Shown here in pieces: positions 49,815 to 62,815 of a stretch of DNA of 64,000 bases. Origin of the DNA: Catenuloplanes niger. GTDB lineage: Bacteria; Actinomycetota; Actinomycetes; Mycobacteriales; Micromonosporaceae. The stretch is taken from the NCBI RefSeq assembly GCF_031458255.1, contig NZ_JAVDYC010000001.1:7426501-7490500 (forward strand). The letters are read 5' to 3'. Numbering within the stretch: position 1 is the stretch's first letter; every line of letters begins with the position of its first letter. Position numbers and translations under genes: made by a program. Under the pieces are notes generated by a model. That model did no database searches. It saw only the letters and a list, made by a program, of their open reading frames with translations, and had not been told where the DNA came from.

Positions 49815-51290
49815 TCAGGACCGGTAGAGGTCGGCCGCGGTGACCAGGACGACGCTGTCGTCCCGGCGGGCGGCCTCGAGCAGGTCGTCGTGGAACCCCA
49901 CGCCGCTGAAGCAGGCCAGCCGGGCGTGCTCCGCGCCGAACCGGCCCTGCGCGGTCAGCAGCGTGCGGATCCGGCGCAGCCGGTCGAGGTGCCCGAGGCC
50001 CATCCGTTCGCCCCACTTCGCCTCGCCGATCGCGAGCAACGGCCGGCGGTCGTCGTCGTCCAGGCCGAACACCACGACGTCGACCTGGTGCGACGTCCGC
50101 CCGGCCGGGTCGTGCACGGCGCCGGTGCCGACCACGTTCGGATAGTCGCCGAACAGGTCGGGTGGGGCCATGTGCCGGGCCCAGCTCCGGCAGACCTGCT
50201 CGAAGTGCGGCCCGAGCACGCTGCCCAGGAACCGTCGCTGGCTGCGCTGCCACAGCCGGGTCGCGTCGCGCGTGTGCTCGAGGTCGGACCAGATCGGGCG
50301 CATGACCGCGTGGTAGAAGGTGACCAGCGGCTCCGCGATCCGGAACGTGGTCCGGTTGTCCCGGAAGACGTCCGGCTCGCGCGTGACCAGCCCGCTGTCC
50401 TCCAGGACGTTGAGCGGATGCGCCAGGTCGCTGCTCTTCCGGCCGAGATAGCTCGCGATGCCCCCGCGCTGCGCGTTGCCGGACGCGATCGCGGCGAGCA
50501 CGGAGTGGTAGAGCGATATGTCGTGCAGCTCGGGCTCGTCCGCCAGCAGGTAGCGGGCCTCGCGGAACAGCGGGCTGGTGGGGGAGAGGACCGTGCGCAG
50601 CACCCAGTCGTCGAAGTCGTCCGGCCCGGCGGGGGTGTCGTCCCGGACGAACTCCCGCCGGTACGCGGGGGTGCCGCCGACGATCGCGTTGACCCGCAGC
50701 GCGGTCACCGGGTCGGCGACCTCCCAGAACTCGGCCGCGAGCCGATGGTCGAGGGTGGGGACGACCAGCTCCAGCCCGGCCCGGCCGCGCAGCGGCGCGT
50801 TGCCGCTGAGCAGCTTCCCCATGAACGACATCGCGGAGCCGCAGAGCAGCAGCGCGGCCCGGCTGTCGTCCCGTTCCGGGCGCAGCGGCGCGAACGCGTT
50901 CTGCACGATCGAGGGCAGCTGCGGGTTGGCGCGCGCCAGGTACGGGAACTCGTCGATGACGACCGGGACCCGGCGCTCCCGGCCCAGCGCGAGCAGCGCG
51001 TCGATCGCCGTGTGCCAGCCGTCGAAGACGAACGGCGCGGGTGCGCCGCCGTGCTCGGCGAGCGCGGCACCGAGCCGGTTCAGCGAGTCCCGGTCGGTGG
51101 CCTCGTCGGCCCCGAAGTAGAAGCCGCCGGTCGCGGCGCACAACGCCCGCAGCAGGTAGGTCTTGCCCTGCCGGCGCCGGCCCGAGACCACGCCGAGCGT
51201 GGCGCCGGGGGCGGGGTCGGTCGCGAAGGCGGTGAGCGCACGCCACTCGCGCTCCCGGTCGAACATGCCCGCCGGTCTCGACAGCGCCAC
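49815..51290 (-). CDS. AAA ATPase with C-terminal DUF234/nuclease-like domain
   Basis: I start at GTG 51290, which has GGGGAGG in place. A longer frame to 51353 reads a translated repeat (YHKWSYHKC) and is rejected. The 491-aa protein has Walker A GRRRQGKTYLLR, Walker B VPVVIDEFPYLA, the arginine-finger strand LLLCGSAMSFM, a winged-helix region and a C-terminal PD-(D/E)xK-like stretch (VDVVVFGLDDDDRRPLLAIGEAKWGERMG: the D, E-x-K). This is the archaeal-type ATPase/DUF234 layout. The role is unknown; defence or mobile-element control is possible. Confidence 0.82.
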   Translation of the reverse strand: MALSRPAGMFDREREWRALTAFATDPAPGATLGVVSGRRRQGKTYLLRALCAATGGFYFGADEATDRDSLNRLGAALAEHGGAPAPFVFDGWHTAIDALLALGRERRVPVVIDEFPYLARANPQLPSIVQNAFAPLRPERDDSRAALLLCGSAMSFMGKLLSGNAPLRGRAGLELVVPTLDHRLAAEFWEVADPVTALRVNAIVGGTPAYRREFVRDDTPAGPDDFDDWVLRTVLSPTSPLFREARYLLADEPELHDISLYHSVLAAIASGNAQRGGIASYLGRKSSDLAHPLNVLEDSGLVTREPDVFRDNRTTFRIAEPLVTFYHAVMRPIWSDLEHTRDATRLWQRSQRRFLGSVLGPHFEQVCRSWARHMAPPDLFGDYPNVVGTGAVHDPAGRTSHQVDVVVFGLDDDDRRPLLAIGEAKWGERMGLGHLDRLRRIRTLLTAQGRFGAEHARLACFSGVGFHDDLLEAARRDDSVVLVTAADLYRS

Positions 51291-51312
51291 GGAACCTCCC
51301 CGGCCGTAACCG

Positions 51313-51350
51313 CACTTATGGTAACTCCACTTATGGTAACTGGAGTTACC
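51313..51350. promoter_or_regulatory. Direct repeats and palindrome upstream of AAA ATPase
   Basis: CACTTATGGTAACT occurs twice 15 bp apart (51313 and 51328). The second copy runs into the palindrome GGTAAC-TGGA-GTTACC (51335-51350). A larger 10-bp stem pairs GGTAACTCCA (51320-51329) with TGGAGTTACC (51341-51350). It lies between the LacI gene stop and the ATPase start, so it may be an operator, or a terminator of the LacI gene. Confidence 0.7.
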
Positions 51351-51363
51351 CAAACTCGGGGGC

Positions 51364-53888: not shown

Positions 53889-56855
53889 TCATTCGCCGCG
53901 CCGGTGTTCGCGGGTGATGCGCCAGATCAGGCGGCGTACCGGGTCCGGCTCGGCGACGCGGAAGTCGACCGGCGGCACGTCGCGCAGGAACGGCGGGAGG
54001 TCCGGCTCCTCGGCCTTGGTGGGCAGCACCACCGGCACGAAGCGCACCCGGCGCGCGATGAACTCGTTCACGGTCGCCAGCTGCGACTCGTCGTCCCACG
54101 GGCCGCCGTGCGCGCCGAGCACCATGACGACCACGCCGATCCGGGCGCGCTCGGCCGGGCCGGCGCCGGTCTCCTCGCCGTGCATCCACGGCAGCAGGCC
54201 CTCGTCCAGCAGCTGCTGGCGCAGGCGTTCCACGGTGCCGCGGTCGGTCGCCTGGTACGCCAGGTACACGTCGAAGTCGCCGACCGCGCGCTTGCCGCGG
54301 ACCGTCGCGGTCGCGGTCTCCCGGCGGCGCCGCAGGTCCGCGCTCGCGTTCATCGCGGAGACCTCGTCCGCCACCGCCGGCACCATCCGGTCCCGCTCGC
54401 GCAGCGAGATCTCACCGGACAGGCAGGCCGGGCACTCCATCGCGGCGTCGCCCCGGGCCAGCCGGCGGCGGGCGAGCTCCTCGTCGAGCTGGTAGCCGCA
54501 GTCCGGGCGCGGGCAGGTGAACACGCGGCGGCGGACCACGGTGTCCGGCAGCGCGCGCTTGGCCAGGTGGTCGGCCACGTAGTCCTCGAAGATCAGCCGG
54601 GTCTCCTCGGCGGTGCCGGGCGCGTAGCACAGCTCCAGCCGGCCCACGCCCTCGTCCGGCTCGGTCAGCCGGAACCCGCACCGGCCACCGGCCCGGGTCA
54701 CGTAGACGGCCGCGCCGCGCCACAGCTCGTGCTTGACGAACGTGGCCGCGTGCGAGAGCCGGACCGCGAGCGTGGCGTACACGTTCTGCAGCGCGCCCTC
54801 GAACAGGAACTCCACGTCGGCCGGCCCCAGGTAGGGCGCGTCCGGCCGGTCCCGGGTCAGCTGGGACGGGAACACCAGGTCCACGCCGCCGTCGTTCGGC
54901 TCGCGCAGTGCCAGGTCGTGCTGCAGCAGCTCCTCCACCATGGCGATCAGCAGCAGCCGTTCCTCGCCCGGCTCGGCCAGCCGGGTCTCCTCCGGGATCG
55001 GGAACCGGCCGGCCAGCGCCTCCTCCTCGGCCAGGTAGCCGAGCCCGTCCGGCTGCGCCCGGGCCGCGTTGATCAGCGCGGACGCGTACCCGTCGAGCAG
55101 TTCCGGGCGCAGCAGCACGTACCCGCCGAAGGTGAACCGGCGGATCAGGTCGCGGCTCTCCAGCAGGCCCGCGCACGTGTCGAAGCCGGCCCGCAGCTCC
55201 GGCTCGCCGGCCAGCTCCCGGTGCCGCGCCTGGAACAGCCGGAACAGGTCGTCGGCGCGGGACAGCGCGTGCCAGTCCGCCTTCTCGTCGATCAGGAACC
55301 GTTTGATCGTCTCGAACAGCCGCGTGGAGATCGACTGGGGCTGCGCGGACCAGTCGATGGCGGACGCGATCACGCCGGTCAGGTCCGCGACGCCGCGGAG
55401 CTCCCGCGCGCTGGTCTCCGCGTACCCGTCCAGTTTCAGCTCCCGGACCAGGTCGTTGATCCGGCCCCGGCTGACCTGCGGGCCGCCGCGGTCCTCGCGC
55501 GCGGAGACCAGCAGCGTGTGCACCGGCCGGCGGCCGTGCCGCAGCGCCCGCGCCCAGTAGCGCACGCCGGAGAACGGGTCCACCTCGCTGCGCGCGTCGA
55601 ACACGATCAGCGCGACCGCGGCCTCGGCCAGGTGCAGCTGGTGCACCAGGCGGTAGCCGGGCTGCCCGGCCAGGTCCCAGAGCAGCACCTCGCGGGTCTC
55701 GGTGCCGCCGTCCGGCTGCTGCGCGGTCTCCTCGCTGAACCGCCACACCTGACGCCCGTGCGTGGAGTCGGTCGCCCGGTACGGCTGCCCGGACAGCACC
55801 AGCCCGAGCCCGGACTTGCCGACCCCGGTGTCGCCGAGCAGCACCACCTTCGCGTTGCGGTAGCGCGACGAGTCCTGCCGGGGCGCGTCGTAGAGCCGCT
55901 CCACGTCCAGCTCCAGCAGGTTCAGCCGCCGGTTGCGGTGGCTGCGGAACGCCAGCAGCGGCCGCTCCGGGTGGAACGCCAGCCCGTCGGCCGACTCCTC
56001 GCCACCGCCGGCCAGGTCCACCACGGCCAGGCACTCCAGCGAGTCGGTACGCCACAGCCGCAGCTCGCCGTCCTCCGACTCGGACGCGAGCAGGCTGCCG
56101 TCCGCGGACGCGGCCAGCCCGATCACCGGCGCGGTGTGCCCCTCGGCCCAGGACAGCAGCGTGCCGGTGTGACTGTTCGCCACCCCGATCGTCGCGTCCA
56201 GGGCCAGGCACACCTCGACACCGTTCGGCATCCAGATCATCGCGTCGGCCGGGCCGGCGTGCAGCGTCGTGGCCTGCTCCGGCGCGCCGGCCGGGTGCAG
56301 CAGCACCGCGCCCGCCCCGTCCCGGTGCCGGCTGGCCAGCGCCCGGCCGCGCGGCGACCAGGACAGCCCCTCGGTGTGCGGCGACACCCGGAACGACGAA
56401 CGGGCCCGGCCGGTGGCGCTGTCCACCGTGGTCACCGAGTGCCCGGCGGTGGCCGCGACCCGGCGCCCGTCCGGCGAGATCGTCACCGCGTGGTGCGTGC
56501 CCCGGTCCGGCAGGCTCTGGTCCCACCGCTCCCGGTTGGTCTGCACGTCCAGCATGGTCACCCGGCCGGAGCTGACCACCGCCATCTCCCGGTTCGCCAC
56601 CGGCGACCAGCAGTACGCGCGGAGCAGCGTCTGCCGAGCCACCGGCCGCTCCGCCACGTGCGACTCCGGGCCGAGCACGGCCGGGACCAGCCACAGGCAC
56701 AGGCCGAGGTCCTGCCCGATCGCGGACAGCAACCGGCCGTCGCAGGACCAGCCGAGCCGGGACCACTCCCGGTACTGCAGGTCCCGCACGCTGTGCAAGG
56801 TCAGCCCGGACCCGTGCGGAAGCGCATCGACGGACAGGCGGCGTGAGGTGGCCAC
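53889..56855 (-). CDS. WD40-GTPase-zinc ribbon-TIR multidomain protein
   Basis: The 988-aa protein starts at GTG 56855. Residues 25-320 form a WD40-like beta-propeller (ADGSLLASESEDGELRLW, SPDGRRVAA). A Ras/Roc-like GTPase follows with G1 GDTGVGKS (341-348), G3 DLAGQ (394-398), G4 read as SAREDRG (451-457) and G5 SAREL (482-486). Residues 500-770 resemble the COR-like middle of ROCO proteins (VFPSQLTRDRPDAP). A C4 zinc ribbon (C781, C786, C808, C811) precedes a C-terminal TIR domain (859-970; FDVYLAYQATDRGTVERL, FVPVVLP, PPFLRDV). It probably senses a signal through WD40 and switches with GTP. The TIR lacks its usual catalytic block. Confidence 0.85.
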   Translation of the reverse strand: MATSRRLSVDALPHGSGLTLHSVRDLQYREWSRLGWSCDGRLLSAIGQDLGLCLWLVPAVLGPESHVAERPVARQTLLRAYCWSPVANREMAVVSSGRVTMLDVQTNRERWDQSLPDRGTHHAVTISPDGRRVAATAGHSVTTVDSATGRARSSFRVSPHTEGLSWSPRGRALASRHRDGAGAVLLHPAGAPEQATTLHAGPADAMIWMPNGVEVCLALDATIGVANSHTGTLLSWAEGHTAPVIGLAASADGSLLASESEDGELRLWRTDSLECLAVVDLAGGGEESADGLAFHPERPLLAFRSHRNRRLNLLELDVERLYDAPRQDSSRYRNAKVVLLGDTGVGKSGLGLVLSGQPYRATDSTHGRQVWRFSEETAQQPDGGTETREVLLWDLAGQPGYRLVHQLHLAEAAVALIVFDARSEVDPFSGVRYWARALRHGRRPVHTLLVSAREDRGGPQVSRGRINDLVRELKLDGYAETSARELRGVADLTGVIASAIDWSAQPQSISTRLFETIKRFLIDEKADWHALSRADDLFRLFQARHRELAGEPELRAGFDTCAGLLESRDLIRRFTFGGYVLLRPELLDGYASALINAARAQPDGLGYLAEEEALAGRFPIPEETRLAEPGEERLLLIAMVEELLQHDLALREPNDGGVDLVFPSQLTRDRPDAPYLGPADVEFLFEGALQNVYATLAVRLSHAATFVKHELWRGAAVYVTRAGGRCGFRLTEPDEGVGRLELCYAPGTAEETRLIFEDYVADHLAKRALPDTVVRRRVFTCPRPDCGYQLDEELARRRLARGDAAMECPACLSGEISLRERDRMVPAVADEVSAMNASADLRRRRETATATVRGKRAVGDFDVYLAYQATDRGTVERLRQQLLDEGLLPWMHGEETGAGPAERARIGVVVMVLGAHGGPWDDESQLATVNEFIARRVRFVPVVLPTKAEEPDLPPFLRDVPPVDFRVAEPDPVRRLIWRITREHRRGE

Positions 56856-56932: not shown

Positions 56933-57817
56933 CTACCGCCGGTCCGCGCCGATCGCGCGCGCGACCGCCTCGATCGCGGCCGGGCCGACGCGGCAGCAGC
57001 CGCCGACCAGCGCGGCACCCGGCGGGATCTCGGGTGGGAGCGGGTCCCCGGTCCAGGCGCGTGCCGTCGCGTCCCAGGTCTCGCCGCTGTTCGGGTAGAC
57101 GACCACGGGTTTCCCGCCGCTGGCCTGCCGGGCGACCGGGACGGCCGCGGCCGCGTCGGCCGGGTCGCAGCAGTTCACGCCGACCGCCACGATCGCGTCG
57201 ACGCCGGCGGTCAGCGCGACGGCCTCGGCGAGCGGCTGGCCGGCGCGGGTGCGGGTGCCGGCGACGGTGAAGGACAGCCACGCGGGTACGCCCAGACCGT
57301 CCAGCGCGGTCAGCAGCGCCTCGGCCTCGCGGGCGTCCGGGACGGTCTCCAGCGCCAGCACGTCCGGCGCGGCCTCGGCGAGGATCTCCAGCCGGGGCCG
57401 GTGGAACGCGGCCAGCTCGCGCACGCTCAGGCCGTAGTTCCCGCGGTACTCCGACCCGTCGGCCAGCATCGCGCCGTACGGTCCGGCGGACGCGGCGACC
57501 CACGCGCGCCCCCGCGCGGTCTCCCGGGCCAGCGCCACGCTGCGGTGCAGCAGCGCGGCGGCCTCGGGCGCGGCGATCCCGGCACGGGCGAAGCCGGGCA
57601 GCGTGGCCTGGTAGCTCGCGGTGGTCAGCACGTCCGCGCCGGCCCGCAGGTAGGCGGTGTGCGCGGCGACGATCGCGGCCGGGTCGTCGCGCAGCAGGCG
57701 GGCCGACCACAGCTCGCCGGAGAGGTCCGCGCCGCCCGCCTCCAGCTGCGTGGCCAGCCCACCGTCGAGCACCAGCGGGCCGGTGGCCAGCGCATCCGCG
57801 AAACCCATGATCTCCAC
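56933..57817 (-). CDS. mmuM: Homocysteine S-methyltransferase
   Basis: The 294-aa protein has the homocysteine-binding zinc site: C216 in VGVNCCDP and the C274-C275 pair in VGGCCRVGP. The start FADALATGPLVLDGGLATQLEAGG is the family opening. It transfers a methyl group from S-methylmethionine or SAM to homocysteine. It lies 30 bases after the coiled-coil membrane protein gene and 77 bases before the TIR gene, all on one strand, so it could be co-transcribed. No functional link is apparent. Confidence 0.92.
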   Translation of the reverse strand: MEIMGFADALATGPLVLDGGLATQLEAGGADLSGELWSARLLRDDPAAIVAAHTAYLRAGADVLTTASYQATLPGFARAGIAAPEAAALLHRSVALARETARGRAWVAASAGPYGAMLADGSEYRGNYGLSVRELAAFHRPRLEILAEAAPDVLALETVPDAREAEALLTALDGLGVPAWLSFTVAGTRTRAGQPLAEAVALTAGVDAIVAVGVNCCDPADAAAAVPVARQASGGKPVVVYPNSGETWDATARAWTGDPLPPEIPPGAALVGGCCRVGPAAIEAVARAIGADRR

Positions 57818-57847: not shown

Positions 57848-58498
57848 TCAGACGTTCTGCACGACGATGGCGAGGCCGGCCGTGACCAGGGCGGAGACCA
57901 CCAGCACGGAGACCGCGCCGGACTCCAGCACCGCGCCGCGGCGGTCCGCGTAGACCTTCGCGGCGAGCAGCGCGATGATCGGGCCGAGCGCGAGCGTGAG
58001 CAGCAGCGCCAGCACCGGGAGCACCACGGCGAGGTCACCGCCGACCGAGTCGCCGGCCGCGCGCACGCCGAAGCCGGCCAGCCCGGCCAGCACGCCGCCG
58101 AGCACGCCGAGCGCGACCAGGATGTTGCGGGTCTGCTCCGGCAGGCCGGCGCGGCGGCCGGAGCGGGCCAGCTGCGCGTGCGCGTCCATCAGCCACTCCT
58201 CCGCGCCGCGCCGGTCGCCGTCCGGCGGCAGCACGGCCGAGGGTGCGGCGCCGATCCGGCCGAACCGCGCGGTGGTCTCGCCCCAGGCGTCGTAGACGCG
58301 CATGTCGATGTCGTCCGCGTGCCGGTTCGCGTCGCGCAGCCGGGCGTCGGCCGCGGCGGCGCGCTGCTCGGCCTCGCGGTACTTCGCCTCCGCGTTCGCC
58401 ACGGTCCGCTCGTACCAGTCGCGGGCCTCGGCGCGGTGCGTGTCGACCTCCGCGTCGATGCCGGCCAGGCTGCGGATCAGCTCGCGATAGGACGTCAT
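57848..58498 (-). CDS. Coiled-coil membrane protein of the FtsK cluster
   Basis: The 216-aa protein has an N-terminal coiled coil (residues 1-75; SYRELIRSLAGIDAEVDTHR, NAEAKYREAEQRAAAADAR), a short charged linker, and three C-terminal helices (about 127-147, 157-180, 193-214). It overlaps the FtsK-like gene by ATGA at 58495-58498. The layout suggests the membrane partner of the ATPase, like an EccB- or EssB-type element, though I see no direct similarity. Confidence 0.7.
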   Translation of the reverse strand: MTSYRELIRSLAGIDAEVDTHRAEARDWYERTVANAEAKYREAEQRAAAADARLRDANRHADDIDMRVYDAWGETTARFGRIGAAPSAVLPPDGDRRGAEEWLMDAHAQLARSGRRAGLPEQTRNILVALGVLGGVLAGLAGFGVRAAGDSVGGDLAVVLPVLALLLTLALGPIIALLAAKVYADRRGAVLESGAVSVLVVSALVTAGLAIVVQNV

Positions 58499-61353
58499 CA
58501 GGTCCACCCGTACGGGATGATCGCCTCGGCGACGCGGTGCACCGCCCGGTCGAAGAACAGCCCGCGCCACGGCCGCGGGTACCAGGCCGGGCCGCGCCCG
58601 TCCGGGTAGAACTGGGACAGCTCGCTGCCGTGCACGTCCAGCGCCAGCCAGGACCCGATCGCGTCGGTACGCGAGCCGATGCCGCCCAGGTCGTCGCGGA
58701 GCCGGCCGGGCTGCCGCCACCAGCCGAGCACGTGCGTGTGGTGCTCCGGCCCGGCGGTCAGGATCCGGCGCAGGTCGTCCAGCCCGGTGGGTGCGGCCGC
58801 GGGCTGCTCCGGGCCGGCGGGTCTCGCGCCGGCGCCCGCGTGCGCGCCGACCGGCGGGATGATGCCGCGCCGCTGCGCCGGGGCCGGCCCCGAGCGGGCC
58901 AGTCGCGGCGTGACCGCGTCCACCGCGTAGAGCAGCAGGAAGTGCGGCTCGTCGCCGTCGTCCTCCAGTCCGGCCGCGGTCGCCCGGAGCAGCGCGGTCA
59001 CGTTGTCCGCGTGGTAGACCGCGGTCCGGTCCGGCGGCAGGATGCCGTGCAGCGCGTCCACGGCCAGCGCGGCGGACGCGTCCAGCACCGCGACCGAGAA
59101 CCGCGCGCCACCGTCCGGGTACTGGGCCGCCAGCGACCGGGCGGCCGCGTTCAGCACCGCGCAGGCCTCGTCCGGCCGCGTGCCGAGCACGGCCAGGTTG
59201 CGCCCGGGCGCGCGGTTCAGCGTCAGTCGCGCGGACCGGGCCTGCACGTCGATCGCCTCGCCGAGCAGCGCGACCGGTGCGCCGGCGCTCCACCGGCGCC
59301 CGGCCGGGTCCGCGCCCGGGGCCAGCGCAAGGAAGTCCGGGGCCGTCTCGAGCCGCGGGATCGCGTCGCCGTCGAACAGGCGCGGCGGCAGCGACCCCTC
59401 CGGCCGGGACGTCCACAGCTCGCGTTGCAGCGACCCCCAGGCCTCCCGGTCGCCGGCCGGTGGCACGCGCAGGATGCGGTTCGCCTCCGGCGCGCCGGAG
59501 TCCGGGTTGACGATCGCGTGGTGCCGGGGCAGCGTGTCCGCGGCCGTGTTCTGCTCGGGCAGCACCTTGCGCGCCTTGGGAAGCGCGATCCGCAGCGAGA
59601 ACTGGGCGACCAGCGACGGCCGGCCCCACAGCGCCTCGATGCCGGAGACGTCCTGGCTGGCCAGGATCAGGTGGATGCCCTGCGAGCGGCCGCGCCGGGC
59701 CAGGTCGTCGAGCAGGTTGACCGACTCGGTGACCACCGCGTCCCGGCCGTTGAGCAGCACCTGGAACTCGTCGATCACGGCGACGATCCGCGGCCAGTGC
59801 CCGGCCGGGTCCTCCGCGCGCAGCTCGGGCAGCTTGGTCGCGTCGAACGCCTTGGCCGCGTCCGCCCGCCGACGCAGCTCCTCGCCGAGGAAGCGCAGCA
59901 GCGCCAGCCCGAACTCCCGGTCCGTGTTGACGTTCACGCCGACCAGCCGCACGTGCGGCAGCCAGCTCGGATCCCGCCGGCCGGGCGCGAACCGGGCGAA
60001 CGACACGCCCTCCTTGAAGTCGAGCAGGTAGAACTCCAGCTCGGCTGGGGAGTAGCGGGCGGCGAGCGCGCCCATCCACGCGTAGATCAGGTTGGTCTTG
60101 CCGGTGCCGGACGGGCCGGCGATCAGCGCGTGCGGCGGGTAGTCGGCGAGCGTCACCGGCACCGGGCGGCCCTGCGCGTCCTCACCGACCGGCGCGACCA
60201 GGCCCTCCGCGGACGACTCGCGCCAGAACTCGGCCGGCAGCAGGTCGCCGAAGCGCACCGGGGCCGGGCCCTCGGCCGCGCGCCGGGCCAGCGTCGCGGA
60301 CGTCTCGGTGACCAGCCGCGGCGGGGGCGGCGGGTCGAGCACCACCGGCAGGCCGCCGAGCCCGCCGACGCGCACCCGGCCGTTCGCGCCGGTGCGGACG
60401 CGTTCCACGGACGGGCCGGCCGGCATCGGCAGGCCGCGCACGATCAGGTGCACGCCGCAGGCCACGCCGGTGCGCGCGATCCGTTCCAGCTGCGCCTGCT
60501 CGTGCGGGGTCAGCTCGTCCTTGCGGCCGGCGCCGAGCAGCACCGCGATCCGCCACGGCTCCGGGCGCCGGCCCTCGGTCTCGGCCAGCTCGCGCAGCGA
60601 CGTGTGCGCACCCGCGAGCACCTTCTCGTTGATCCGCCGGATGTGGTCGACCAGGCCGTCCAGCAGCGCGGACAGGCCACCGGGGCCGACGAACGTGAGC
60701 AGGCCCGCGTTCGCCAGCGGCGCGAAACCGGCCAGCCCGCCGCCGAGTTGCTCCGGGTCGTACCCGGTGATGTGCACCTGACCCGGCGGTGCGCTGCCGA
60801 GCGCGCGCAGCAGCAGCGTGGTGACCACCCGGTCACCGGTCTCGGCGTAACCGGGCGCGTGCGCGGGATCGGCGTCGCCCGGCCCTATCTGCCGTGCGGT
60901 CGCCGCGTCCTCCGCCGCGGGCAGGTCGGACAGGTGCACGTGCGCACGATCGAGAAGCGGGACCAGCGCGGGTACGGGTACGGTGCGCGCGATCCGGACC
61001 GCGCCGATCCGCAGCTCCGGTGCCACGTGCCCGCGCTCGGCCGGTGTCGGCTTCCACTCGTCCCAGCCGTCCCCGGCCGCGCCCGGCGCCTCCCGGTCCC
61101 CGGCCTCCGCCGCGGCGCGGGTCAGCTGCGCGAGCCGGGCCGCGTACATCTGGTCGATCTCGGCCAGCCGGGCGTCGCGCTGCCGGGCGGCCCGGACCGG
61201 CACCTCGTCCGCGGCCGCGGCGAGCCGGTCCAGCCGGGACAGCGCGGCGTCCAGCTCGCGCTCCGCCTCGGCCAGGTCGCCGCGGGCCCGGCCGAGCGCG
61301 TAGGACAGCGTCCGGCGGATCTGACCGGCGACGCCGGCCCGCGAGTCAGCCAT
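58498..61353 (-). CDS. FtsK/SpoIIIE-like ATPase with N-terminal coiled coil
   Basis: The 951-aa protein starts with a coiled coil (residues 20-80). The first half holds degenerate nucleotide-binding-like sequence (residues 110-370) before a proline-rich linker. One clear FtsK/SpoIIIE ATPase follows: Walker A GPSGTGKT (413-420), FYLLDFKEGV, Walker B IVAVIDEF (523-530) and RRGRSQGIHLILASQD. The remainder again looks like a degraded second ATPase. ESX/T7SS EccC proteins have several such domains, but this one lacks obvious membrane helices. It lies between the coiled-coil membrane protein and an unknown partner. Confidence 0.85.
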   Translation of the reverse strand: MADSRAGVAGQIRRTLSYALGRARGDLAEAERELDAALSRLDRLAAAADEVPVRAARQRDARLAEIDQMYAARLAQLTRAAAEAGDREAPGAAGDGWDEWKPTPAERGHVAPELRIGAVRIARTVPVPALVPLLDRAHVHLSDLPAAEDAATARQIGPGDADPAHAPGYAETGDRVVTTLLLRALGSAPPGQVHITGYDPEQLGGGLAGFAPLANAGLLTFVGPGGLSALLDGLVDHIRRINEKVLAGAHTSLRELAETEGRRPEPWRIAVLLGAGRKDELTPHEQAQLERIARTGVACGVHLIVRGLPMPAGPSVERVRTGANGRVRVGGLGGLPVVLDPPPPPRLVTETSATLARRAAEGPAPVRFGDLLPAEFWRESSAEGLVAPVGEDAQGRPVPVTLADYPPHALIAGPSGTGKTNLIYAWMGALAARYSPAELEFYLLDFKEGVSFARFAPGRRDPSWLPHVRLVGVNVNTDREFGLALLRFLGEELRRRADAAKAFDATKLPELRAEDPAGHWPRIVAVIDEFQVLLNGRDAVVTESVNLLDDLARRGRSQGIHLILASQDVSGIEALWGRPSLVAQFSLRIALPKARKVLPEQNTAADTLPRHHAIVNPDSGAPEANRILRVPPAGDREAWGSLQRELWTSRPEGSLPPRLFDGDAIPRLETAPDFLALAPGADPAGRRWSAGAPVALLGEAIDVQARSARLTLNRAPGRNLAVLGTRPDEACAVLNAAARSLAAQYPDGGARFSVAVLDASAALAVDALHGILPPDRTAVYHADNVTALLRATAAGLEDDGDEPHFLLLYAVDAVTPRLARSGPAPAQRRGIIPPVGAHAGAGARPAGPEQPAAAPTGLDDLRRILTAGPEHHTHVLGWWRQPGRLRDDLGGIGSRTDAIGSWLALDVHGSELSQFYPDGRGPAWYPRPWRGLFFDRAVHRVAEAIIPYGWT

Positions 61354-62350
61354 CGGCGTCCGGCTCCCGGTAGGTGGGCACCGTCTCCGGTGCCGCCGCG
61401 TTCAGCGAGCCGGGGTCCCGGCCGAGGCGCTTGAGCAGCACGCCGGTGAGCACCGCGCCGGCCACGGCCGCGTCCGCCGGGTGCGCGCGCTCGGCCTCGT
61501 TGCGGCGCCGGCCGTCCTCGGTGCGCTCCGCGTCGTCGTCGCCGCTGTCGTTCTCCCGGGACCTGCGCTGCTCCGGCGGGACCCGGCAGACGCGCTCGGC
61601 GAGCACGTCGATGGTGTTCGCGGGCAGGCCGGGCAGCAGTTCGCGCAGTTGCTCGGCCTCCTTGCGCACCCGCGGCAGGTCCTCGGGCCGGGGTTCGTGA
61701 CCGAGCAGGTCGGCGGTCAGCCGGTGCAGCAGCGCGGGGGAGAGCGCGGCCAGGCCCAGCCCGACCGGCGGCTCGACCTCGCCCAGCTCGCGGCGCATGC
61801 GGCCGGGGCTGTCCGAGCCGACCGAGGCGGCGACGCGGCGCAGCAGGTCCGCGCTGTCCGTGGCCGCGTCCCGGTCGTGCCGGTCCCGCTCGCCGGGCGT
61901 GGCACGGCCGGGGCCGCCGGCCGCGCCGGCCGACTCGTCCTCGCTCGCCTCGCCACCGGTGAGCACCGTGACGCGCGCCTTCCACCAGCGGCCGAGCGGC
62001 GCCGCGTCCGGCGTCTGCGGTGTCTCCTGGGGACGGTCGCGCTCCTCGAACGCGACCGCGTCCCGCCAGCTGCCGTCCGCGCCGCGGGTGGCGTCGTGGC
62101 TCAGGCCGATCGCGGCCAGGTATTCGGAGATCGCGTCCTGGGCGCTGCGCAGCGCGAACGCGGCGTGCTCGGCGTGCTCGGTGGCGTTGGCCAGCTGCGG
62201 CACGCCCATCGGCTGGGAGGACGCCTGGCGGACCCAGGCCAGCAGCTCGGACGCGACCCGGAGGCGCTCCAGCGCGGCGAGGACCAGCCCGACCGGGAGC
62301 TCGTCGTTGGTGGCGCGGATGCGCGCGCCCAGCTCTTCGAGCAGAGACAT
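61346..62350 (-). CDS. Unknown protein of the FtsK/WXG cluster
   Basis: The 334-aa protein overlaps the FtsK-like gene by 8 bases. The N-terminus (residues 1-100, MSLLEELGARIRATNDELPVGLVLAALERLRVASELLAWV) is helical, with a possible WXG-like fold; the middle is Asp/Glu/Ser/Arg-rich and disordered, and the end is Ala-rich with GAVLTGVLLKRLG. I do not recognise it. The close coupling suggests it works with the ATPase, perhaps as a chaperone or adaptor for the WXG-like protein. Confidence 0.6.
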   Translation of the reverse strand: MSLLEELGARIRATNDELPVGLVLAALERLRVASELLAWVRQASSQPMGVPQLANATEHAEHAAFALRSAQDAISEYLAAIGLSHDATRGADGSWRDAVAFEERDRPQETPQTPDAAPLGRWWKARVTVLTGGEASEDESAGAAGGPGRATPGERDRHDRDAATDSADLLRRVAASVGSDSPGRMRRELGEVEPPVGLGLAALSPALLHRLTADLLGHEPRPEDLPRVRKEAEQLRELLPGLPANTIDVLAERVCRVPPEQRRSRENDSGDDDAERTEDGRRRNEAERAHPADAAVAGAVLTGVLLKRLGRDPGSLNAAAPETVPTYREPDADG

Positions 62351-62359
62351 GACGTGGAT

Positions 62360-62620
62360 CTACAGCGTCGCGGTGTAGGTCTGCGCCTGTTCCACCGCGG
62401 CGAGCGTGGCGGTGTAGCAGTTCTCCAGGTCCACCGTGGCCTGCTGCAGCGACGCGTACGCCGCCTGCGTGGCCTGATGGCCGGAGCCGTCCCATGCCGT
62501 CGCCAGACTCATCTGCGCCTCCGAGAGTTTCTCGTTGGCCGCGCTGATCGCCACCTGGGACTCGGTCACCTGCTGGATCGCGGCTTCGATGGCGGCGCGA
62601 ACCTCAGCAACACTGGCCAC
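62360..62620 (-). CDS. WXG100-like small helical protein
   Basis: I start at GTG 62620 because GGGAGGGG lies just before it. The 86-aa protein is all-helical: VAEVRAAIEAAIQQVTESQV, then a turn with AWDGSG, then QATQAAYASLQQATVDLENC. The W-D-G turn in the middle of a roughly 90-aa two-helix hairpin is the WXG100 pattern. The C-terminal YxxxD/E secretion motif is not clear. It opens the FtsK cluster and is the probable substrate or partner. Confidence 0.72.
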   Translation of the reverse strand: MASVAEVRAAIEAAIQQVTESQVAISAANEKLSEAQMSLATAWDGSGHQATQAAYASLQQATVDLENCYTATLAAVEQAQTYTATL

Positions 62621-62815
62621 TCGAACCCCTCCCACTCTGCGGGGAGATCCTAACGGAGACCGAGATCGTCCGTGGAGCGCCCCAAGCGGTCTCGTAGGGC
62701 ATTTACCCCGAATCGCCGGACTTGGGTCTGCGCGACTCTGCGTGTGGCAACCGTAACCACAAGTGTCTGGTTGTGCTACTTGAAACGAAGTGAATAGTTG
62801 TTCATCCCGGATCAG

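Follow-up and report, generated by a model that had tools for sequence, protein, structure and literature searches.

The 64,000-nucleotide stretch of the Catenuloplanes niger genome analysed in this work (the window; the host genome is 9.74 Mb in a single contig) carries on its minus strand, at 53889-56855, a gene for a 988-amino-acid protein in which a WD40 beta-propeller, a Roc GTPase, a COR domain, a zinc ribbon and a TIR domain follow each other in one chain. Comparison with homologues and structure prediction suggest, at a probability of roughly 60 %, that the protein is a conflict receptor (immune or suicide) switched by guanosine triphosphate (GTP), whose TIR domain in this genus would work by contact and not by cleavage of nicotinamide adenine dinucleotide (NAD). 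The reading as a GTP-switched conflict receptor is preferred because the family shares the logic of the AP-GTPase-COR conflict systems, with WD40 as the sensor. A contact output appears the likelier one because the TIR domain lost its catalytic residues yet has been kept by selection.

Architecture of the protein

The gene, defined by its open reading frame, Pfam matches and an AlphaFold2 model, begins with a GTG codon (all features of the window given with coordinates below lie on the minus strand). GC content in the stretch around it is approximately 74 %, which permits the plus-strand frame of equal length that overlaps it; the minus-strand frame was taken as the coding one because both the domain matches and the conservation among congeners fall on it. 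The protein is 95-96 % identical to its homologues in two congeners and 84-85 % identical to that in a third. A pseudogene was considered and rejected, since the frame is open without inner stops in genomes G003 and G004 and the ratio of non-synonymous to synonymous substitution rates (dN/dS) is below 1 in the domains compared. The homologue in G002 stops about four residues short of the end of the window protein.

Pfam placed a THOC3-type beta-propeller at residues 32-303 (91.1 bits, under the model's own cut-off of 305), a WD40 repeat at 238-268 (28.6 bits, cut-off 27), Ras at 336-493 (51.6 bits), Roc at 336-451 (50.8 bits, cut-off 27) and TIR_2 at 863-977 (31.0 bits, cut-off 28). The AlphaFold2 model of the full-length protein, built with 16 aligned sequences, had a mean predicted local distance difference test score (pLDDT) of 83.6 and a predicted template modelling score of 0.80. 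The 50 matches listed for this model by Foldseek were all WD40 propellers, with template modelling (TM) scores for the target of up to 0.85. The propeller, a putative sensor, spans approximately residues 18-316 (55908-56804; Pfam and Foldseek), and a long helical linker at residues 826-858 (54282-54380) was assigned from the AlphaFold2 secondary structure. Pfam, the motifs and the AlphaFold2 model bear out the layout that an earlier note on this DNA had proposed, i.e. propeller, GTPase, COR-like middle, C4 ribbon and TIR in a single chain. The intact G1 and G3 motifs that it reported are read directly as GDTGVGKS and DLAGQ, and the relationship to Roc/ROCO proteins is upheld by the Pfam Roc match and the COR fold.

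A constant core with exchangeable outputs

Homologues were collected by a scan of contigs, which returned at least 592 stretches and at least 20 loci, 16 of them used; together with eight rows from further genomes and the window this gave 25 rows. Left out were L045 (a fragment), L047-L049 (short or weak matches), L015-L018 (other Roco-type proteins) and repeat loci. The bacterial loci used come from Nostoc, Calothrix, Anaerolineae, Ardenticatenaceae, Planctomycetota/Gemmataceae, Acidobacteriota, Chlorobiaceae, Magnetospirillum, Pseudonocardiales and Bacterium UASB270, and one archaeal member comes from a Methanosaeta metagenome-assembled genome (MAG).

Across the family the WD40-Roc-COR-ribbon core is constant and the C-terminal output is exchanged. 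The chain ends in TIR in 15 of the 25 rows, in DUF4365 in seven, in SEFIR/TIR in two and in a nucleotide cyclase in one. Pfam confirmed DUF4365 in 7/7 rows, SEFIR in both of its rows (L023 and L039) and the cyclase in its row; TIR_2 was matched in eight of the 15 TIR rows (the window, three congeners, L024, L025, L033 and L037), the other seven being assigned by alignment. Three DUF4365 members (L040, L041 and L046; by Pfam on L041) bear a TIR domain at the N-terminus. A passage of PMC10810196 (this and the other papers are cited here for individual passages) calls DUF4365 a nuclease domain that occurs in association with short Argonautes. Since the outputs are exchangeable on one core, the family would behave as a modular conflict receptor.

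WD40 identity was lower than that of both Roc and COR in 11 of 12 pairs, by at least 20 points in eight of them; the window-L019 pair was too close to tell. The window and L022 are identical at 30 % of WD40 positions vs 68 % in Roc and 65 % in COR (39 % in TIR and 50 % in the ribbon), L025 and L026 at 39 % vs 78 and 77 %, and L023 and L039 at 35 % vs 75 and 68 %, respectively. A fast sensor on a slow switch, as these alignments suggest, fits what would be expected of a receptor facing changing targets.

Two members of about 1.6 thousand amino acids (L025:7215-12260 and L026:7051-11937) carry an N-terminal NACHT-like module and Roc-COR before the TIR domain. Pfam identifies the module of L025 as NNH7-NACHT, and a comparable extension with a P-loop was recognised by eye in L026; each chain therefore holds two different nucleoside triphosphatase switches.

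Distribution, mobility and defence genes

In the genus the gene was found in four of five genomes, at one site in all four, and genome G001 is without it. The order sample gave matches at E <= 1e-10 in 10 of 397 genomes, four of which had only weak Roc matches to other Roco-type proteins, and in the phylum sample (COR profile, E <= 1e-15) the window's own genome was the single match among 396. The core tree is incongruent with the species, as rows of different phyla group together, e.g. Chlorobiaceae with Gemmataceae at 96/90. Two cyanobacterial plasmids carry members: Calothrix NIES-4101 plasmid4 and Nostoc C057 p057_H. The copy on plasmid4, which is mobilizable, has a TIR domain with WxxxE and the beta-B Asp and adjoins a phage integrase. 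On p057_H, a VMAP-M1/VMAP-C gene and a MoxR ATPase lie approximately 5 kb from the start of the member; a NACHT gene comes immediately downstream of the member, and a second one is found about 3 kb upstream of it. On this conjugative plasmid (L086:8005-12336) the WD40-Roc-COR-ribbon core is followed by a calcineurin-like phosphoesterase (Metallophos) and CHAT.

The neighbour scan covered 103 neighbours of 20 contig loci, up to three genes per side, called with a simple frame caller; it did not take in the genus loci or L033 and L045, which are on short contigs. The matches listed represent 25 of 49 families for PADLOC and 25 of 67 for Pfam, and 20 of the 103 neighbours were scanned singly. Among the Pfam matches listed the neighbour families were mostly metabolic or cell-wall ones, and there were two NACHT C-terminal (NCH2) matches. 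PADLOC recognised a Septu PtuA/PtuB pair (L044:7253-9282) directly beside a WD40-Roc-COR-DUF4365 gene and PDC-S60 beside L037.

The conflict-type switch suggested in the earlier note gains from the exchange of effectors, the faster sensor, the patchiness, the plasmid copies and the one relative near VMAP/MoxR. The protein could instead be an endogenous switch, with no part in defence, that governs growth or development in a bacterium with a large genome and probably a filamentous habit. The common site in the four of five genus genomes that have the gene and the purifying selection would agree with such a role, as would the rise of Dictyostelium Roco genes on starvation mentioned in PMC6337361. 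This alternative is nevertheless rather unlikely in view of the patchy presence described above, in the genus as well as in the order and phylum samples, and because a housekeeping switch would not ordinarily be expected to swap effectors, to have copies on plasmids or to keep company with NACHT/VMAP genes.

The degenerate TIR domain of the genus

The TIR domain of the window protein (residues 861-985; 53901-54275, from Pfam, alignment and AlphaFold2) is degenerate: its WxxxE motif reads W920-DDE-S924, the beta-B Asp is replaced by H892 and helix alpha-B is nearly gone. Outside the genus, all 14 TIR domains had E at W+4; the four genus members had S, S, S and L there. The beta-B position was occupied by D in 12 of the 14 and by H in all four genus members, from whose TIR domains the alpha-B stretch is largely missing. 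The SEFIR members L023 and L039 were left out of this count, and the plasmid copies L085 and L086 were counted apart. By parsimony, the catalytic loss would fall on the genus branch after its split from G034, whose L022 has both the Glu and the Asp. The two TIR domains outside the genus without the beta-B Asp are those of L031 and L032, both from Chloroflexota; they show a similar shortening around alpha-B with the WxxxE Glu kept, possibly a parallel reduction.

According to passages of PMC11374754, the NADase activity of bacterial TIR domains mostly depends on the WxxxE Glu, and AbTir is inhibited by the beta-B mutation D167A; AbTir D167 was equated here with the beta-B alignment column by motif position, not by structural alignment. 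NAD cleavage by the genus TIR is unlikely because this domain has lost the WxxxE Glu, the beta-B Asp and most of helix alpha-B. The pairwise dN/dS of the TIR domain within the genus was 0.17-0.54 (five pairs, simple NG86 estimates on few differences), and the domain is therefore maintained by purifying selection.

The earlier note had regarded the TIR domain as the output; an enzymatic output would make the protein an active immune receptor that responds to a triggered WD40 sensor by cleaving NAD and so kills the cell or arrests it. The TIR_2 match lies above the cut-off, the AlphaFold2 model shows a TIR-like alternation of strands and helices, WxxxE is present in relatives, and the window TIR has a Glu one residue early (E923, at W+3). 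Against this stand the loss of both the Glu and the Asp in 4/4 genus members, the near absence of alpha-B and the published dependence of NADase activity on these positions, so that an enzymatic output did not stand for the window protein and such a receptor is quite improbable here. The host genome has seven TIR_2 matches, that of the window protein included; to regard the others as partners of the window TIR is speculation.

The Roc-COR switch and its zinc ribbon

The Roc GTPase (residues 329-500; 55356-55871, by Pfam and alignment) displays G1 at 341-348 (GDTGVGKS), G2 (STHG), G3 at 394-398 (DLAGQ), G4 (ARxD, with D455) and G5 (TSA). The P-loop GK was present in 24 of the 25 family rows, L043 being without one, and D[LF]AGQ and the G4 Asp were each found in 25/25.

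Residues 503-770 (54546-55349), which have no Pfam COR-A or COR-B match, were assigned to COR from the predicted fold (AlphaFold2 and Foldseek). A separate AlphaFold2 model of residues 503-825 reached a pLDDT of 89.1, and all 23 of its PDB matches at E <= 1e-3 in Foldseek were Roco or LRRK1/2 chains. The best match was the isolated COR domain 3dpt_B (E 4.1e-10), and 6hlu_A gave E 1.1e-9; across the two-part domain the matches had a TM score of about 0.4 and a root-mean-square deviation of about 9. A sequence search of the PDB with the COR profile returned only three weak zinc-finger chains. The region formerly called COR-like is in this way a COR by predicted fold, though not by Pfam. On these models the window protein is a divergent Roco (Roc-COR) GTPase with its COR assigned by fold and not by sequence profile; it was filed as such because COR itself defines the class and the fold search is the more sensitive test.

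The C4 zinc ribbon at the end of COR (residues 771-822; 54390-54545) was defined by alignment and by the same ribbon in other Roco-type loci. Its C781, C808 and C811 are invariant in 16/16 aligned rows, and a few members have a nearby His instead of Cys as the second ligand. The pattern C-x3-C...C-x2-C occurs at the corresponding place in all seven other Roco-type loci examined: L027 (leucine-rich repeat (LRR)-Roc-COR by Pfam), L028 (by eye), L066-L068 (COR-B matches), and L050 and L051 (Roc matches). The ribbon is therefore the tail of COR and not a module added before TIR. A novel insertion was rejected on the same evidence, and the ribbon before TIR, earlier pointed out as a peculiarity of the domain order, turned out to be no such thing.

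Proposed mode of action and related systems

We infer ligand sensing, a GTP cycle, GTP-controlled assembly, an immune role and an adaptor role for the protein. The WD40 propeller would bind a cue, either an invader protein or a damage signal, and this binding would change the state of Roc between GTP and guanosine diphosphate. Roc with COR would then control a dimer/monomer or higher assembly, which would present or cluster the C-terminal output domain. In the relatives the output would be a TIR domain with catalytic residues, SEFIR, DUF4365, a nucleotide cyclase or a phosphoesterase/CHAT pair; in the genus, NAD cleavage by the TIR domain would be less likely than contact with another protein or a role as adaptor or regulator. 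More tentatively, and with the odds somewhat against it, the WD40-Roc-COR-ribbon proteins might be undescribed, horizontally moved NLR-like immune receptors in which a Ras-type GTPase, in the place of an AAA+ ATPase, links a propeller sensor to exchangeable killers, the killer having been disarmed in this genus and turned into a TIR scaffold acting in trans on a second TIR protein, either to signal through it or to restrain it.

Several points weigh against the conflict-receptor reading. Pfam COR-A/COR-B was matched by 0/21 family members at E <= 1, in contrast to L027, an LRR-Roc-COR protein from a genome of the same family, which scores 94 and 61 bits, and hhalign of COR against two Roco COR sequences was not significant (probability 1.7 %, E 0.029, with a shallow second profile). 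TIR and ribbon, too, diverge faster than Roc-COR in several pairs, and the quick divergence of WD40 may come from misaligned repeats or a relaxation of constraint. Several loci lie on MAG contigs, for which the assigned taxon may be incorrect, and the dN/dS values carry the limits stated with them. The partner in the adaptor role is hypothetical, though the host genome has six other TIR_2 matches. As to defence islands, a setting raised earlier for the homologues, a clear known defence pair (Septu) was seen at at least one of the 20 contig loci among the matches listed, without a random-gene control, and no enrichment is claimed. PADLOC gave no match on the window protein, the 24 pattern stretches on viral contigs (IMG/VR) included no relatives, and no copies were found in phage records.

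The human switch proteins LRRK2/DAPK have a bacterial relative in the window protein. As in LRRK1/LRRK2 and DAPK1, a Roc-COR core is coupled to an output domain, but their output is a kinase and the WD40 of LRRK is C-terminal. Prokaryotic Roco proteins such as that of Chlorobium tepidum (PDB 3dpt/3dpu/6hlu) have the same Roc-COR tandem by fold, although they are LRR-Roc-COR proteins; in the Roco-type loci examined in related genomes, COR likewise ends in a Cys4 ribbon, and motifs of the STHG and DxxGQ types were recognised by eye. The sequence of sensor repeat, nucleotide switch and output is also that of NLR/STAND and APAF-1-type receptors, and L025 adds NNH7-NACHT. Roco proteins are Ras-like GTPases, whereas STAND proteins are AAA+ ATPases. 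The window protein, with only a Ras-like GTPase and no AAA+ NACHT/NB-ARC ATPase, is similar to the latter in working and is not a member; of the STAND/ROCO logic claimed earlier, the sensor-GTPase-TIR layout and the ROCO part are retained and STAND membership is given up. The bacterial TIR NADases (AbTir and others) have the TIR domain in common with it, but the WxxxE Glu and beta-B Asp are missing in this genus.

Passages of Kaur et al. 2021 (PMC8195603) present as a conflict system the bacterial AP-GTPase-COR proteins that carry leucine-rich repeats and, between them, at least 24 different C-terminal domains, including TIR; a part of a 2020 paper from the same group (PMC7159879) counts COR-bearing AP-GTPases as effectors in VMAP ternary systems. 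The window family resembles the former in its Roc GTPase and COR, its variable C-terminal effectors, TIR among them, and the predicted counter-invader role. It differs in having a WD40 propeller where the N-terminal LRR stands in those proteins, and a COR too diverged for Pfam. As WD40 replaces LRR, the family is called a variant and not a member of the LRR-type AP-GTPase set. A passage of a 2019 review (PMC6337361) gives all prokaryotic Roco proteins identified by then as LRR-RocCOR. Passages of a 2024 paper on brown algal ROCO proteins (PMC11378527) state that ankyrin, WD40 and other repeats are often N-terminal in ROCO proteins generally, report a TPR-ROCO-TIR protein in the red alga Chondrus and give prokaryotes as LRR-ROC-COR. 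N-terminal WD40 and TIR fusion are in this respect shared with eukaryotic Roco proteins, the statements of that source being general or eukaryotic ones. No description of a bacterial WD40-Roco-TIR protein was found in the open-licence literature, where the source data of PMC8195603 may list a WD40 member, and the literature search for antiphage Roco proteins found none. Within the literature searched, the bacterial WD40 Roco branch appears to be a new variant.

With outputs that lend themselves to assay (TIR, DUF4365, CHAT), a WD40-sensing branch would open the idea of a Roc-COR immune switch to direct tests, and it would be relevant to how LRRK2/DAPK-type signalling arose. On one scaffold, TIR domains range naturally from intact to disabled, a series with which the enzymatic and scaffolding roles of TIR could be told apart.

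Genomic neighbourhood

The gene lies 77 bp past a gene of the homocysteine S-methyltransferase family (56933-57817; Pfam and genus synteny), on the same strand and at the end of a same-strand run with WXG100 and FtsK genes, as the earlier note had placed it. The S-methyltransferase is not part of the system by present evidence; one of the 103 neighbours elsewhere matches S-methyl_trans (Pfam). Upstream of it, on the same strand, lies a tight four-gene run (57848-62635) encoding a 219-amino-acid protein of unassigned family with a membrane stretch recognised by eye (57848-58507), an EccC/FtsK-like ATPase (58498-61353), a 334-amino-acid protein of unassigned family (61346-62350) and a WXG100-like protein (62360-62635). 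ATPases similar to the EccC/FtsK-like one occur in related genomes.

In the sister genome G001 the four-gene run stands without the TIR gene: approximately 90-100 bases separate a GH1 gene from the S-methyltransferase gene that follows it, the remainder of the cluster comes next, and the difference is therefore one of presence or absence of the gene at a fixed site. By tblastn the window's neighbour genes were found beside the gene only in the genus, in the loci searched, some of them on short contigs; the FtsK homologues in G034 and G247 lie either at a distance of at least about 190 kb or on a different contig. That the protein functions within the adjacent WXG100/FtsK (type VII-like) cluster, as the common strand, the 77-bp spacing and the arrangement kept in the four genus genomes having the gene might suggest, is extremely improbable given this genus-only linkage and the whole cluster kept in G001 without the gene, and a functional link to the run was rejected.

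Elsewhere in the window, at 49815-51353, a P-loop ATPase gene with weak ATPase_2 and MarR_2 matches under the cut-off adjoins a gene for a LacI-family regulator.

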